Positions 1-5,182 of a stretch of DNA of 5,182 bases are shown piece by piece. Within the stretch, counting starts at the first letter, position 1. Each line of letters opens with the position of its first letter. The position numbers and the translations under genes were made by a program. Source of the stretch: Pseudomonadota bacterium (lineage in GTDB: Bacteria > Pseudomonadota > Gammaproteobacteria > Halothiobacillales > Halothiobacillaceae); NCBI GenBank assembly GCA_021795795.1, contig JAJYPA010000563.1:1-5182 (forward strand), in the 5' to 3' direction. The notes beneath the pieces were generated by a model. That model was not told where the DNA came from. It did not search any database and saw nothing but the letters and a program-made list of their open reading frames with translations.

Positions 1-327
1 GGTGACTTCCTCAACATCATCTGTGTTGCTGATCGCAATGCCTGCCTCCTCGTCGAACAGGTCGGTCAAGGTGGCCTGAGTCCCCTCGATTTGCGAAGTC
101 AGCAGGGCCTCCTTGCGAATAGCACTGTAGAGCAGCCAATCGACTGATGGAACAAGCCCCGACACCCCGGACAGCCGTGCCAGAGCCAGTTCGGCATGAC
201 GATTCAGGTCGATAAACGACCCTGGCTCCAGCGCCGGCTCAGTGGGCGGCAATGGGTGTGGCACAAAAGCTTGTACCAACTCGCCCAGTGTCGTGGTGGT
301 CACATAGCTACCTGCAGAACGATTCAT
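1..327 (-). CDS. Fic family protein, N-terminal part (runs off the left edge)
   Basis: The minus strand is open from position 327 to the window edge and gives the first 109 residues of a protein beginning MNRSAGSYV. The stretch around residues 64-91, including WLLYSAIRKEALLTSQIEGT and ending TLTDLF, is the signature of the Fic N-terminal domain. Residues T77-S-Q-I-E81-G82 fit the [ST]xxxE[GN] inhibitory motif of class II Fic proteins, whose glutamate blocks the ATP site. Fic enzymes transfer AMP or another nucleotide moiety to target hydroxyls. The catalytic HPFxxGNGR motif should lie outside the window, so activity cannot be judged. I chose the ATG at 327 over the one two codons upstream (333) because the AAAGGA ribosome-binding sequence sits about 7 bases before 327 but only 1 base before 333. 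The gene is more GC-rich than the central genes and may belong to the older background or to a separate island gene. Confidence 0.88.
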   Translation of the reverse strand, partial: MNRSAGSYVTTTTLGELVQAFVPHPLPPTEPALEPGSFIDLNRHAELALARLSGVSGLVPSVDWLLYSAIRKEALLTSQIEGTQATLTDLFDEEAGIAISNTDDVEEVT

Positions 328-335
328 TTGCATAT

Positions 336-907: not shown

Positions 908-2242
908 ATGTTCAAATTAACCAGTCTTGGTGTAATTGGAAGTGGAGGCTTTGGCACCGTTGACCTAGTTCAGAATGATGCTGGCCAGCAATTTGCCCGA
1001 AAGACGTTCTCGGTTAATCAGCCCCTGTCGCCCCACTTGCGTGAAAACGTGCTGAAGCGATTCAAGAAGGAGGTTCGGACCCAGGGAGGGATTAATAACA
1101 GAAACATTGTTCCTATTCTTTATCACGATTTGGAGACCTGGCCACCTTTCTATTTGATGCCTGTGGCGGTATCAGGATTGGATAATGACATTGCAAACAA
1201 AATGATGTTCTGTGGTAATTTTATTGTTGCGCTCAGCGACATTGTAGCGGGCCTCGAGAGCCTTCATTCCTTACACATCTATCATCGGGACCTAAAGCCA
1301 CAGAACGTTTTACGATTTAATGATCAGACGCAGGGTCCTGATTATTATGCAATCAGCGATTTCGGGCTGATTTCGATGCAAGAGTCTCAACTTTCAGTGC
1401 TGACCTCTACTGGAATGACCCGTGGTGCGGACAATTATACGGCGCCAGAAATAACTCAAGATCTTCGGTACGCTTCTATTCAGTCTGACATCTATTCGCT
1501 TGGCTGTATATTGCACGACTTTATTGGGCAGGAAATCCGCGTGCCGTGTAATGAGATACGTGAAAACTCCCCTTTTGGAGCGATTCTGCTGGGCTGCACT
1601 CGCAAGAATCCAAATCAGCGGTTCAAGTCTGCGCGCGCCGTGTTAGATGCTGTTTTAAGTGTTGACTTAGTTAACTCCGTACCGCCGACGCCACAGGCCG
1701 CAGATTTCATAGCTATGCTAGAGAGTGACCTAGCAACTGTACCTCAGTTTAGATGGAGGAATCTGGCAGACTTTCTTTACGGCGTAGCCACGCCGAATGA
1801 GGCCAGAGCGATATTCATGCGTCTCAATGAAAACTGTATAGAATTCATATGCCGCGTGGTGCCTATAGAAGCGAAGATTATTGGCCTATCTTTTACGGGC
1901 TGGGTTACTGAGTCTGCCTTCAATTTCGACTACTGCGATGGTTTAGCCAATCGCCTGGAAATGTTTTTTCAGGCCTTGGATGATTATGAGCTAAAAGCAT
2001 CTTGTCTAATGGCGCTTCTGGCGATGGGCACATCCCATAATCGCTGGTACGTTGAGCATAAATTTATTCGTTTGACTGGGGCTACTATGGATAGACTTCT
2101 TGCAGAAAGACTGGCAATTGAATTTCGTGTTGTTGATCGGTTGGTGTGTCGGCAGATTAGTCATTTGGAAATATCAATTGGAGTGAGTCGAACAGCCCTT
2201 CACCCACTTATTCAACTGGCGTTATCTCAGATCTGCGTATGA
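908..2242 (+). CDS. Hanks-type serine/threonine protein kinase with unassigned C-terminal domain
   Basis: This is a 444-residue cytosolic protein kinase that should transfer ATP phosphate to Ser/Thr of partner proteins. Every core motif is visible: Gly-loop GSGGFGTV (11-18), ATP-anchoring Lys32 in FARKTF, helix-C Glu55, catalytic loop YHRDLKPQN (125-133, Asp128), DFG (151-153), TAPE (178-181), SDIYSLG (193-199) and the late-lobe Arg238. It therefore looks active, and as an RD kinase it may be controlled through its activation loop (about 154-178, rich in Ser/Thr). The kinase domain starts almost at residue 1. Residues about 260-444 are a mainly helical-looking extension with no family I recognise, plausibly a sensor or substrate-docking domain. 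No membrane segment, PASTA or FHA region is seen. The start is fixed by in-frame TAA stops just upstream. Shine-Dalgarno pairing is poor, only GGG about 7 bases away. The stop overlaps the phosphatase start, so the two are one operon. Confidence 0.95.
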   Translation: MFKLTSLGVIGSGGFGTVDLVQNDAGQQFARKTFSVNQPLSPHLRENVLKRFKKEVRTQGGINNRNIVPILYHDLETWPPFYLMPVAVSGLDNDIANKMMFCGNFIVALSDIVAGLESLHSLHIYHRDLKPQNVLRFNDQTQGPDYYAISDFGLISMQESQLSVLTSTGMTRGADNYTAPEITQDLRYASIQSDIYSLGCILHDFIGQEIRVPCNEIRENSPFGAILLGCTRKNPNQRFKSARAVLDAVLSVDLVNSVPPTPQAADFIAMLESDLATVPQFRWRNLADFLYGVATPNEARAIFMRLNENCIEFICRVVPIEAKIIGLSFTGWVTESAFNFDYCDGLANRLEMFFQALDDYELKASCLMALLAMGTSHNRWYVEHKFIRLTGATMDRLLAERLAIEFRVVDRLVCRQISHLEISIGVSRTALHPLIQLALSQICV

Positions 2243-2961
2243 CTTTCCTTTATGCTAGTGTTAGCGAAAAAGGTCCTCGCCACTCAAACGAAGATGCTAT
2301 TGGTGTGTGGCGCCCAAGCGATGATTGCTTGCTGGCTGCAGTTGCTGACGGGCTTGGTGGTATGGGGGGAGGGAACATTGCCTCCGCAATAGCTATTGAG
2401 GTTATTGATAAAACGCTAGTACTCAACCCCAATCCGTCGAAAAACCTATTGCAGATCGCGGAACAGATACACAGAGAGATACTAATAAAACAATCAGAAA
2501 GTGATGATTTAAAAGCCATGGCAACTACTTTGTCAGCCGTCCATCTCTGCAAGGAAGCGTTGACGGGGGTACATTGTGGCGACACTAGGGTGATGATCGC
2601 GCGTGGACATGGTATTAAGCGCTTAACTCGCGACCATACCGATGTTGCACGATTTTTGGAGCAGGGAAAGATTACCAAGAGCGAGTACCTCGACTATCCA
2701 AGAAAAAACATTTTGTATAGCGCGCTTGGTGCTAAAAAAGAACCAAAGATACAGCTATTCCATTTTGGTATAGAACCCGGCGACTGGATTCTGTTGACGT
2801 CGGATGGTGTACATAGCCAAGTTTCAATGGCAGAATTCCGAAATATTGCAAATATCTCGACAACCCCTGACGAATACGTGATATTGTTGCGACATCTACT
2901 AGATAAAAAGTGCATAAGTGATAATTACAGCGCGGTTGTTGTTCATGCCGTAAACGATTAG
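2239..2961 (+). CDS. PP2C-family serine/threonine protein phosphatase
   Basis: This is a 240-residue, single-domain, metal-dependent phosphatase that removes phosphate from Ser/Thr. The family motifs appear in order: RHSNEDA (14-20, Asp19), VADGLGG (35-41, Asp37), MATTL (94-98), HCGDTR (112-117), LLTSDGV (185-191, Asp189) and SDNYSAVVV (227-235, Asp228). The metal-binding aspartates are all present, so it should be active. The length is that of the compact bacterial class seen with type VI secretion PppA and TerY-P phosphatases. No signal peptide or membrane segment is visible. Its ATG overlaps the kinase stop as ATGA and has no clear Shine-Dalgarno of its own, so translation is probably coupled to the kinase. 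The obvious role is to reverse the kinase. No secretion or tellurite-resistance gene is in view to place the pair in a known system. Confidence 0.95.
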   Translation: MTFLYASVSEKGPRHSNEDAIGVWRPSDDCLLAAVADGLGGMGGGNIASAIAIEVIDKTLVLNPNPSKNLLQIAEQIHREILIKQSESDDLKAMATTLSAVHLCKEALTGVHCGDTRVMIARGHGIKRLTRDHTDVARFLEQGKITKSEYLDYPRKNILYSALGAKKEPKIQLFHFGIEPGDWILLTSDGVHSQVSMAEFRNIANISTTPDEYVILLRHLLDKKCISDNYSAVVVHAVND

Positions 2962-3145
2962 CCGAGGCTTCTGTCGCTCTTTATATGTCACCCAAAAAAA
3001 TGGCATTGCGTTATTCCTGGTTGCCCGTGTTCTGAAAGGGAATACGATCATGCAACACACGCTTTGCGCGTACAATATTGTAAATGGTTCCGAAAAGACT
3101 TCTCTTTTCGCAAGCCTGATCAATTATGGCTTCTTCTTTCTTTGC
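2962..3145. other. Intergenic gap between convergent genes
   Basis: This gap separates the phosphatase stop from the HNH-GHKL stop. It contains one perfect stem-loop (3091-3110) and an A7 run (2994-3000) that reads as T7 on the minus strand but has no strong stem before it. I looked on the minus strand for an attC site that would make the HNH-GHKL gene an integron cassette and found none. Confidence 0.5.
3091..3110. terminator. Stem-loop between convergent genes (possible terminator)
   Basis: CGAAAAGA (3091-3098) pairs perfectly with TCTTTTCG (3103-3110) around a CTTC loop. It lies 130 bases past the phosphatase stop and 35 bases past the HNH-GHKL stop, where a shared transcript end would be expected. 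No U-run follows on either strand, so it is not a textbook intrinsic terminator. It could instead protect a 3' end. Confidence 0.3.
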
Positions 3146-4234
3146 TCACAGAGCAGAAGGCGTTTGATCATCAAAATTCATAATCTCCACCTGGTGGCCA
3201 AGCTTCTGGAGTTCTTTAACAACTTGCTCAGATAGTTCGTTACCAACCAAGATGATCCTCTTTCCTGAGTTTAAGATCTGTCCATTGCTGTTGCGAAAGC
3301 CGATTGCGTCGCTACAAGTCAAGTATTCTGGAAGAAGAACATAGATAGAATCGCAATCGGTCATCGTCTGCACTTGACGGTGAATTGTCTGCGCGCTTGC
3401 GCGGTCGAGTGTGATTGATATATTGCATGGTGTTGCCTCGGGTATATCCTCTGGCTTGCGTACCAGAGTTATGCGGTTCAGGTTTTTTCCAGAGCAATAC
3501 TTTGAATCTAATATGATCGTTGCTCCGTGTCTTTTCTGTAAAGCGGCCAGCGACGTAGAGCCACCTCTGCCACCACTTATACTAATTAGGGTTGTGCTGT
3601 CGAAGCGATTTCCATTGTCGATTAGTTCAATGCAAGTTGATCGAATATTGATTACTGCATTCGTAGCTTTCCCATGACTGAGCGCATTCCGAATAAGTTC
3701 AATAAGTGTATCACGTGTTGCGCGAGCTTGCATTTTTCCCCAGATTAGTTCTAGGCAGCTATTTCTTATAGCAGTACCGATGATCTGATTCTCTTCTCCT
3801 AAGGAGGTGATTTGTAAAGTTTGCTCCGGTAATGCAACTTCTTTTAAGTGACCTGGCGTTAGTTCGACGACGCGCCCAAGCGTATTAGAAAGGTTGGCGC
3901 GGAGTTCTGCGAATTTCTTCCACGTAAAAAGCATGTCCGCAGTATATGCATCCTCGTCGGTATCAATTATCTTCCCATGCTGGTAGCACATCCAGATACC
4001 ATTGGAGACATCTTCTAGTTGTTCTTTCGTCCTCATCGTGGATACACGACGTGCGCAACCTCCAGGCGCAGCAGCATAAATATGACAAGCCATTCCTGAG
4101 TTGCTAACGCCACTAGGCGACTCTGTACTTGGCCCTGTTGTTATCACAGTACAACCTGGGAAAGAACACATATAACCCGCTCTTTTTGCAAGAATCTCTT
4201 TAGTGGGAGAAGAAAAGTTTGCTCTGGTAGTCAT
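3146..4234 (-). CDS. HNH-like domain fused to GHKL ATPase domain protein
   Basis: This is a 362-residue two-part protein. Residues about 15-110 resemble the HNH nuclease fold: CSFPGC (Cys23, Cys28), ACHIYAAAPGG (His51), SNGIWMCYQHGKIIDTD (Asn78, Cys83, His86) and a closing WKKFAE. Family members usually read LCxxCHxxID where this one reads MCYQHGKIID. By that alignment His86 takes the second zinc-cysteine position and the usual last HNH histidine is Gly87, so cleavage is uncertain. Residues about 150-260 carry GHKL ATPase boxes: N-box ELIRNALSHG (179-188, Glu179, Asn183), G1 DNGNRF (206-211) and glycine-rich GGRGGSTSL (221-229). Residues 270-355 are an unassigned alpha/beta tail. GHKL ATPases of the MutL/MORC class act as ATP-driven clamps on nucleic acid. 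The start is supported by AGGG 8 bases upstream. The gene converges on the kinase-phosphatase operon and follows the peptidase cassette in the same direction. Confidence 0.82.
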   Translation of the reverse strand: MTTRANFSSPTKEILAKRAGYMCSFPGCTVITTGPSTESPSGVSNSGMACHIYAAAPGGCARRVSTMRTKEQLEDVSNGIWMCYQHGKIIDTDEDAYTADMLFTWKKFAELRANLSNTLGRVVELTPGHLKEVALPEQTLQITSLGEENQIIGTAIRNSCLELIWGKMQARATRDTLIELIRNALSHGKATNAVINIRSTCIELIDNGNRFDSTTLISISGGRGGSTSLAALQKRHGATIILDSKYCSGKNLNRITLVRKPEDIPEATPCNISITLDRASAQTIHRQVQTMTDCDSIYVLLPEYLTCSDAIGFRNSNGQILNSGKRIILVGNELSEQVVKELQKLGHQVEIMNFDDQTPSAL

Positions 4235-4358: not shown

Positions 4359-4426
4359 AATGTCCGGTTCCGCTGCCTTGGCGCCGTTTAGCCCTGATGA
4401 TCGGCAGCAGACTGGTAGCGGACATT
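4359..4426. repeat. Long imperfect inverted repeat upstream of the HNH-GHKL gene
   Basis: AATGTCCG (4359-4366) is complementary to CGGACATT (4419-4426). Inside these arms GCTGCC (4372-4377) pairs with GGCAGC (4403-4408). The right arm is the 27-bp repeat copy B, and the left arm is a diverged reverse copy. It sits between the attC and the HNH-GHKL start, so it would be in the leader of any transcript reading from the cassette into that gene. Confidence 0.55.
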
Positions 4427-4430: not shown

Positions 4431-4496
4431 CTTTAACGTCGAAATTCATCGGTGCATAGCGAAGCGGAGCATCCGAGTGAAATTGCCTTGTTATGT
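4431..4496 (-). other. attC: attC recombination site of the peptidase cassette
   Basis: Read on the minus strand, the 66-base site starts with core ACATAAC (4496-4490) and ends with core GTTAAAG (4437-4431), close to the RYYYAAC and GTTRRRY integron core sites. AATTTCACTCG and CGATGAATTTCG fold together with one extra C bulged out, as attC hairpins do. The centre, around CTCCGCTTCGC, makes the variable loop. The stop codon TAA of the peptidase lies inside the first core site, which is typical of integron cassettes. Both core sites deviate from consensus (a purine in a Y position; a final G instead of Y), so efficiency is uncertain. Recombination would fall between G4437 and T4436. Confidence 0.75.
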
Positions 4497-4923
4497 GTTC
4501 GTGACAGGCAAAAACCATCTTGCTTTGATACGGCCAAAATCTCTCCGCTTATTTGTTTTGATATTTTTCTTTGGGTCATATACGAACTCATCGCTTGATG
4601 TCCTTCGATAAACTACCCAATGCCATGTGCCCAAGTCTTCCTTGTAGTTTATGGCCAATATTGCCATTTCAGGAAGATTTTGAAAGCCATTAAATTGCCG
4701 CCTTTTATTCCCAAGTTCTATATCGAAATTTTTACCTAAATCTTTGAGATGTTTGGTTCCTGTATAAAATGTACCTGAATCATCAAAACCCAGCTGTTTT
4801 ACGGCTAACTCTCTTACACTGCTGTAGTCGGTACCTGCCAACATTGCGATACATGCTAATCCACAGCCAGTTGGGTCTCCTTGCTTTACTCTTCGCATTT
4901 TCCCGATTTCCTTCTATACATAA
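4437..4923 (-). mobile_element. Integron gene cassette (487 bp) carrying a C39-like peptidase
   Basis: The limits are the expected G/TT recombination points in the attI-like site (G4924/T4923) and at the attC end (G4437/T4436). The cassette holds one gene filling nearly all its length, with 25 bases ahead of the ATG and the stop inside attC. That is normal cassette economy. The next sequence in the array direction is the inverted repeat and then the HNH-GHKL gene, for which I see no attC of its own. Confidence 0.65.
4491..4898 (-). CDS. Stand-alone C39-like (papain-fold) cysteine peptidase
   Basis: This 135-residue protein has the layout of peptidase family C39. Gln6 and Cys12 lie in KQGDPTGCGLACIAMLAG (5-22), giving the oxyanion glutamine and catalytic cysteine. 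His93 is in TWHWVVY and Asp108 in FVYDP. C39 domains normally form the N-terminus of ABC exporters that trim bacteriocin leaders after a double glycine. Here the domain is alone, with no transmembrane or ATPase part and no signal peptide, so it is probably cytosolic and its substrate is unknown. The ATG is bounded by an in-frame TAG 15 bases upstream. AAGGA (about 10 bases away) or GGGA may serve as the ribosome site. The gene is AT-rich and sits in an integron cassette 19 bases from the attI-like core, so it would be expressed from an integron promoter or one inside attI. Other possible roles include toxin, immunity or anti-phage peptidase. Confidence 0.85.
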   Translation of the reverse strand: MRRVKQGDPTGCGLACIAMLAGTDYSSVRELAVKQLGFDDSGTFYTGTKHLKDLGKNFDIELGNKRRQFNGFQNLPEMAILAINYKEDLGTWHWVVYRRTSSDEFVYDPKKNIKTNKRRDFGRIKARWFLPVTNT

Positions 4924-4984: not shown

Positions 4985-5182
4985 GATCTCCCCGGCTACA
5001 ACCGTCCTCCTTTTTTAATTCTACACCAATCCACCCGAATTTTAACGACCGCTTCCGCTGCGAAGGCGCCATTGACATAAAGGGCGTGAAGGTGACTTGT
5101 CAAATGCCAAGATGCTCCTTTCTGTCAATGGACAAGTGAAAGCGGCCTACCTGCCGAAAATGTCACCCGCGTCGTGGCCCTC
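4985..5182. other. Right-end non-coding stretch; no integrase visible
   Basis: An integrase gene reading away from the cassette (plus strand) would be expected to start here, but no frame shows a tyrosine-recombinase N-terminus. The sequence holds a 7-base direct repeat GGCTACA (4994-5000, also 4944-4950), a run of T at about 5011-5016, a compact GC-rich hairpin around CGCTTCCGCTGCGAAGGCG (5050-5068), and the nested inverted repeats described separately. The plus frame from ATG 5112 stays open to the edge but has no ribosome site and no recognisable product. Confidence 0.45.
5069..5137. repeat. Nested inverted repeats, possible insertion-sequence end
   Basis: CCATTGACATAAAGG (5069-5083) is an inverted copy of CCTTTCTGTCAATGG (5117-5131), 14 of 15 positions. 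Inside and beside it ACTTGTC (5095-5101) is inverted as GACAAGT (5131-5137). GGTGAC at 5091-5096 recurs inverted in TGTCACC (5161-5167). Clusters of short repeats containing TTGACA and GGTGACA are characteristic of IS21-type ends, as I remember them, but no transposase is in view. The TTGACA boxes could also be -35 elements, and the one at 5104-5099 on the minus strand points toward the cassette. Confidence 0.4.

Follow-up and report, generated by a model that had tools for sequence, protein, structure and literature searches.

A KKP-like kinase-PP2C pair adjoining an HNH-GHKL candidate effector: probably two separate anti-phage modules in one gammaproteobacterial contig

KKP, a kinase-kinase-PP2C module (PfkA-PfkB-PfpC) described by Guo et al. 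in 2024, is mostly borne by prophages and functions in phage defence; its phosphatase restrains the toxic kinases, inhibition of the phosphatase by T4 Gp59 triggers defence, and the module also governs Pf lysogeny through phosphorylation of MvaU (PMC11341870). The accompanying survey was limited to triplets in the order PP2C-kinase-kinase whose genes measure 900-1300 bp (PMC11341870). Another precedent is VcSduA, in which a defence nuclease is joined with a GHKL ATPase (PMC12137116). The window analysed here, the whole 5,182-nucleotide stretch of contig JAJYPA010000563.1 from a member of the Halothiobacillaceae, holds a Hanks kinase gene coupled to a PP2C phosphatase gene and, tail to tail with these, a gene for a protein in which an HNH domain and a GHKL ATPase are fused (HNH-GHKL). 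This arrangement, including the intactness of both enzymes, had been described in a first-pass annotation and is confirmed by the open reading frames (ORFs), by Pfam and by the intact catalytic residues. It is rather probable that the window contains two independent accessory mobile anti-phage modules which adjoin one another, namely a KKP-like two-gene variant and a stand-alone candidate effector; defence by the pair or by HNH-GHKL is what we infer from their relatives and neighbours.

The kinase and its PP2C partner

The kinase gene (908-2242, forward strand, 1335 bp) encodes 444 amino acids, and the PP2C gene (2239-2961, forward strand, 240 amino acids) has a start that overlaps the kinase stop at ATGA. 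The kinase matches Pfam Pkinase at 90.9 bits (1.2e-25), and the catalytic set can be read in its sequence: GSGGFG, K32, E55, HRDLKPQN (D128), DFG (151-153) and APE (179-181), residues which are invariant or almost so across an alignment of 39 sequences. Its kinase domain (approximately residues 1-255) is followed by an all-helical C-terminal domain (approximately 262-442) in a structure model with a mean predicted local distance difference test score (pLDDT) of 86. The C-terminal part has zero matches among PDB sequences, Pfam up to an E value of 1 gives kinase families only for the protein, with neither CSD nor FHA, and Foldseek with the whole model returns kinase domains among the matches listed. 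The phosphatase matches PP2C_2 (57.4 bits, 1.9e-15) and the NCBIfam model Stp1/IreP at 155 bits, under the model cut-off of 230, and residues D19 and D37 are present.

Of 7996 candidates scored in a protein search with the kinase, 2318 were matches; identity is 50-100% over 89-100% of the query for the 120 that were listed, and kinases with the helical C-terminal domain are therefore a sizeable family. The family was found in 1 of 297 sampled genomes from the order of locus L006, in 2 of 385 from its class and in 0 of 369 from the class of locus L026. Gene context was compared in 15 distinct kinase loci spanning 4-20 kb, some shortened by contig ends (L077 is 4.2 kb): phages phiES15 and Flotzy, four plasmids (three from Acinetobacter and one from Vibrio, these being all plasmid records matching at 1e-30), three genome contigs and six IMG/VR contigs. 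The last six came from alignment A2, after single-sequence kinase and PP2C scans of viral contigs had given no relatives; among phage records, 18 match the kinase and 24 the PP2C, with gene context taken from two (phiES15 and Flotzy). In 14 of the 15 loci a PP2C gene immediately follows the kinase gene, the contig of the fifteenth (L085) ending inside the kinase gene, and the coupling proposed for the window is supported. The helical C-terminal profile is present in 12 of the 15, the kinases of phiES15, Flotzy and Vibrio being those without it. The pairing is also hinted at by the clusters: between the kinase and PP2C clusters listed (120 of each), 43 distinct longest-contig sizes coincide; in the same comparison for HNH-GHKL clusters the figure is 1 of 22. 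One PP2C relative, P0145, occurs at 76% in Acidithiobacillus ferrivorans SS3; the length of this contig is not seen in any of the 120 kinase clusters listed, so that the kinase is possibly missing or disrupted in SS3, or simply outside the list.

Relatives of the pair are carried on mobile elements. Two loci (L076 and L077) are P2-like prophage contigs in which it adjoins the portal gene, with a gpP-like terminase further out in L076. On three small Acinetobacter plasmids (L045, L046 and L047), BrnT/BrnA toxin-antitoxin genes lie near the pair. Comparison of the window DNA with plasmids gave zero matches, and E. coli genomes contain nothing close to the kinase-PP2C DNA of Flotzy. By analogy with KKP, the PP2C would keep the kinase and its substrates dephosphorylated, as in a toxin/antitoxin-type pair, until infection by a phage upsets the phosphatase or a ligand for the helical C-terminal domain becomes available; the released kinase may then phosphorylate essential host or phage proteins, and infection would abort. 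Toxicity, trigger and targets are all modelled here on KKP. The suggested link with anti-phage biology is supported, and KKP provides a phage-defence precedent for a kinase-PP2C combination, one which the first-pass annotation had not cited.

A different role for the same pair would be the control of prophage or plasmid maintenance, acting on lysogeny or on host nucleoid proteins, with defence secondary and HNH-GHKL an unrelated neighbour. Carriage in prophages, phages and plasmids fits this role, as does the control of Pf lysogeny by KKP through MvaU phosphorylation; however, KKP itself also defends (both points from PMC11341870), no phage family is found by Pfam among the six window ORFs scanned, and BrnTA lies near the pair on the Acinetobacter plasmids. 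A maintenance function as the main one is considered unlikely.

HNH-GHKL and its neighbours

The HNH-GHKL gene (3146-4234, reverse strand) encodes 362 amino acids arranged as an HNH domain, an RsbW/SpoIIAB-like GHKL ATPase and a C-terminal alpha/beta domain that is possibly STAS-like; it is convergent with the pair, with a stop-to-stop gap of 184 bp. There is no full-length family match in Pfam, PADLOC, NCBIfam or PHROGs, and with Pfam no family rises above cut-off for the window protein. In an alignment of 21 HNH-GHKL homologues (A1), HATPase_c is found in 4 members, at best with 7.6e-6, and HNH_2 in 2, at best with 0.043. The HNH part is recognized by PADLOC models of HNH/CBASS effectors (CBASS, cyclic oligonucleotide-based anti-phage signalling system) over residues ~3-119, by PHROG families without an assigned function (residues 3-116), and by the PDB chains 9om4 (1.4e-9) and 8ysq (2.5e-6). 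It is modelled poorly, with pLDDT <50 over residues 33-65 and 78-94. Residues N78, C83, H86, N183, D206 and G208 are invariant in the 21 homologues, and C23, C28 and H51 nearly so.

The GHKL domain occupies residues 134-260 in the AlphaFold model, and its best structural matches are SpoIIAB/RsbW. The comparison with MutL/MORC-type systems drawn in the first-pass annotation is not supported by these matches. Proteins of that type are defined by a GHKL domain followed by an S5 domain (PMC2292703); Pfam finds no S5 family in HNH-GHKL, although a fold beyond those listed may be present. The tail is suggestive of a STAS/DUF4325-like domain, as hhalign against five HTH-HATPase-DUF4325 proteins gives a probability of 76.8. 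Eleven frames of 344-399 amino acids (L050-L055, L057, L059-L061 and L064) combine HTH, GHKL-type ATPase motifs and DUF4325, their domain order having been judged by eye; of 143 genomes searched within one class, 22 have DUF4325.

The family is rare. A search of a 5.8-billion database, which relies on shared 5-residue words, gave 22 HNH-GHKL proteins at E <=1e-3 among 2709 scored candidates. A single-sequence scan of genome contigs gave no relatives; the A1 alignment gave 28 genome loci (15 full-length) and one viral locus, which with phage L001 make 17 full-length loci (L001, L003-L016, L021 and L031), of which L014 and L015 run to contig ends. Thirteen genome loci and L002 have the HNH part only; in L002 (488-1594) a similar HNH domain with a different C-terminus lies in a P2-EC46 lysogenic conversion gene. 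All 122 matching plasmid records likewise have the HNH part only, none covering 80%, and one of five matching phage records exceeds 80% coverage. In sampled genomes from the order of L008, full-length HNH-GHKL occurs in 2 of 399, both already known, with the HNH part alone in a third. A relative at 62% (P0006) is found in Acidithiobacillus ferriphilus.

Part of the full-length relatives have known defence genes as neighbours. HNH-GHKL stands beside Avs2 in L016 (PADLOC, 1546 bits), PifA in L013 (629 bits), a class II pAgo in L005 (pAgo_II, 643 bits), a SIR2 protein in L007 (PDC-S25, 233 bits) and GajA-GajB in L006 (246 and 185 bits), where BovA (643 bits) is the second gene upstream. The neighbour scan covered 14 of the 17 loci, leaving out L001, L014 and L031, and some of the proteins chosen are second neighbours; 6 of 20, from 5 loci, reach at least 200 bits. 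Among 20 control ORFs taken at 10 places (of 14 control places fetched) that represent 10 of these genomes, 0 reach this score, the best having 108 bits, and at an E value of 1e-10 the matches are 8 of 20 neighbours vs 2 of 20 controls; however, the neighbours were picked by eye, while the control set consists of longest ORFs chosen automatically, including overlapping ones on opposite strands that are perhaps non-genic, and the comparison is therefore unblinded and its control soft. An AriA/OLD-like match in L003 was not counted because its 106 bits fall within the control range. Other relatives have phage surroundings: in Rhizobium phage RHph_N28_2 (L001, 5004-6071) the homologue lies on the opposite strand between DUF2280 and the terminase large subunit, in L031 it is within a phage packaging region, and in L004 it adjoins a phage lysozyme gene. 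In the mechanism envisaged, ATP binding by the RsbW-like domain, perhaps together with the C-terminal alpha/beta domain, would license DNA cleavage by the HNH domain; the conserved HNH and ATP-site residues are consistent with a nuclease under such control, and the neighbours with a putative role in defence.

Evidence for and against a joint function

The first-pass annotation had put forward all three genes as one candidate defence module: on sensing infection the kinase would phosphorylate the HNH-GHKL effector, with the PP2C keeping the effector off. It had proposed conserved adjacency as the check. The A1 profile finds HNH-GHKL in 0 of the 15 kinase loci within the flank available, and the window kinase family is found in 0 of the 17 full-length HNH-GHKL loci, for 15 of which whole genomes were also searched. 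The whole-genome kinase search, covering 16 genomes (15 with full-length HNH-GHKL), gave matches at 1e-10 in 2, both to the kinase domain only. With HNH-GHKL homologues almost never beside the pair, the claim of one general three-gene system largely fails. In the window HNH-GHKL is also on the other strand, and its relatives have their own neighbours among defence and phage genes. The longest of the 10 contigs in the window HNH-GHKL cluster measures 106,846 bp, against maxima of 10,678 bp for the kinase cluster and 6,976 bp for the PP2C cluster; this suggests, within the limits of 90% clustering, that copies without the pair exist.

Kinase-like genes occur near full-length HNH-GHKL in L009 alone among the 17 loci, and none has the helical C-terminal domain. 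Here, in Burkholderia aenigmatica, a KKP-like module (2889-6359) of PP2C, kinase and kinase stands in KKP order approximately 3.6 kb from HNH-GHKL; the kinase at 2889-4067 has a CSD-like tail (Pfam 6.7e-4, below cut-off), and the middle kinase appears to end in an FHA domain by our own reading, with no Pfam match. A tblastn search with the window PP2C finds no PP2C in any of the 17 loci, the divergent one of L009 being detected by Pfam only, and distant PP2Cs near other HNH-GHKL loci may therefore be missed in the same way.

Several observations weigh against the separation of the pair from HNH-GHKL. Three relatives, kinase P0025 (81%), PP2C P0144 (85%) and HNH-GHKL P0002 (71%), each have a longest contig of 3667 bp from the same source. 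This length could accommodate the three-gene layout of the window, and one diverged metagenomic contig probably carries the same trio, which hints at joint inheritance. An imperfect direct repeat, with copies at 709-740 and 4395-4426 (both forward strand, 27/32 identical), encloses all three genes as one block, and they may therefore have entered together; 0 of 200 first-order random sequences gave a repeat as high, the best having 24. Other HNH proteins lie a few kb from two kinase-PP2C loci, one on Vibrio plasmid p251 (L048 2451-3110, Pfam HNH, adjoining AAA and restriction genes) and one in phage Flotzy (L033 1-990, annotated as an HNH endonuclease), neither matching the A1 profile. The softness of the neighbour control, as mentioned, belongs here as well. 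The G+C content of the three genes is alike (0.45-0.46). The three-gene claim stays alive because of the 3667-bp contig and the module near the L009 HNH-GHKL, and joint function is weakly supported; as a general system, with the counts from both sets of loci against it, it is regarded as quite unlikely. Among the open-licence literature titles listed, none names this combination of kinase, PP2C and HNH-GHKL.

Two further schemes would involve S308, which is invariant in the 21 homologues and positioned at a helix start after a strand. In a phospho-relay confined to a narrow clade, the kinase and PP2C would control the phosphorylation state of an HNH-RsbW-STAS-like effector, Ser308 being one candidate site; this is very unlikely, although if true a nuclease and the parts of a sigma-factor partner switch would be combined in a new defence circuit. 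In a partner switch in cis, less likely again, the RsbW-like domain would phosphorylate Ser308 of its own STAS-like tail and a PP2C would reset it, thereby gating the HNH domain. The SpoIIAB/RsbW structural matches, the place of S308 and the hhalign result suit such a switch, but the hhalign probability is moderate with a loose C-terminal alignment, and the window PP2C search draws a blank in all 17 HNH-GHKL loci. That the genes persist merely as neutral passengers of a mobile block is barely credible, as the three frames are intact and catalytic residues are kept, despite the flanking repeat and the varied settings of a rare family.

A second imperfect repeat pair (4359-4388 and 5044-5073, 77%) was also noted around the three genes, and the imperfect repeats are possibly remnants or a boundary of a mobile element. 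At the left edge, the start of a Fic/DOC-family gene (1-333, reverse strand) is cut by the window (Fic_N 1e-18, PADLOC SoFic 58 bits) and has a G+C content of 57% vs 45-46% in the three genes. A C39-peptidase-like protein of 135 amino acids is encoded at 4491-4898 (reverse strand, Pfam 6e-9), with no transporter family by Pfam among the window ORFs scanned. A promoter and terminator scan of the window gave a signal no higher than in shuffles.

Comparison with known systems

Among systems related to HNH-GHKL, the CBASS HNH-SAVED effector Cap5 and its relatives have an N-terminal HNH domain of the same type. HNH-GHKL differs in having the RsbW-like GHKL domain and alpha/beta tail in the place of SAVED, with matches stopping near residue 119, and no CD-NTase (nucleotidyltransferase) was found by Pfam or PADLOC among the window ORFs scanned. 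SpoIIAB/RsbW share the Bergerat fold, for which the N-box and DxG are named motifs, and the N-box Asn and DxG are present in HNH-GHKL; unlike them, its ATPase is fused to an HNH domain, and Pfam gives no sigma-factor match in the scanned ORFs of the window. VcSduA similarly has a GHKL ATPase fused to a nuclease which it is hypothesised to control, but in HNH-GHKL the domain order is reversed, the nuclease is HNH rather than PD-(D/E)xK, and the GHKL domain is most like SpoIIAB/RsbW (PMC12137116). Shedu was rejected, as the SduA model matches residues 4-105 only (2.4e-6; profile 15-108 of 326) and Pfam finds no DUF4263. HNH-GHKL is most likely an uncharacterised HNH-RsbW-like candidate effector, one of a rare family with part of its members beside known defence genes, and is amenable to a direct test for defence on its own.

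For the pair, the TerY-P triad was likewise set aside: Pfam finds no vWA (TerY) family in the six scanned ORFs of the window, in agreement with the first-pass annotation. Among other kinases, Stk of 933W is reported to exclude HK97. Stk2 of Staphylococcus is also a Hanks kinase tied to phage defence, but it is a single locus with the kinase alone (PMC11341870), and the PADLOC Stk2 match on the window kinase (64.9 bits) is confined to the kinase domain. KKP is closer. Both combine Hanks kinase activity and a PF13672 PP2C in one operon. KKP is mobile and largely prophage-borne, with P2 prophages among its carriers, and relatives of the window pair occur in prophages, phages and plasmids. In comparison with KKP, the window has one kinase rather than two, in the order kinase-PP2C rather than PP2C-kinase-kinase, and this kinase has a helical C-terminal domain with no CSD or FHA match where KKP has a PfkA-like CSD and a PfkB-like FHA domain (PMC11341870). 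The pair is not filed as KKP because the two-kinase, order and CSD/FHA features fail; its kinase gene is also beyond the 900-1300 bp filter, and a one-kinase pair could not be listed in a survey which required PP2C-kinase-kinase triplets of such genes. The window pair is best described as KKP-like in design, a putative one-kinase counterpart of KKP seen on prophages, phages and small plasmids.

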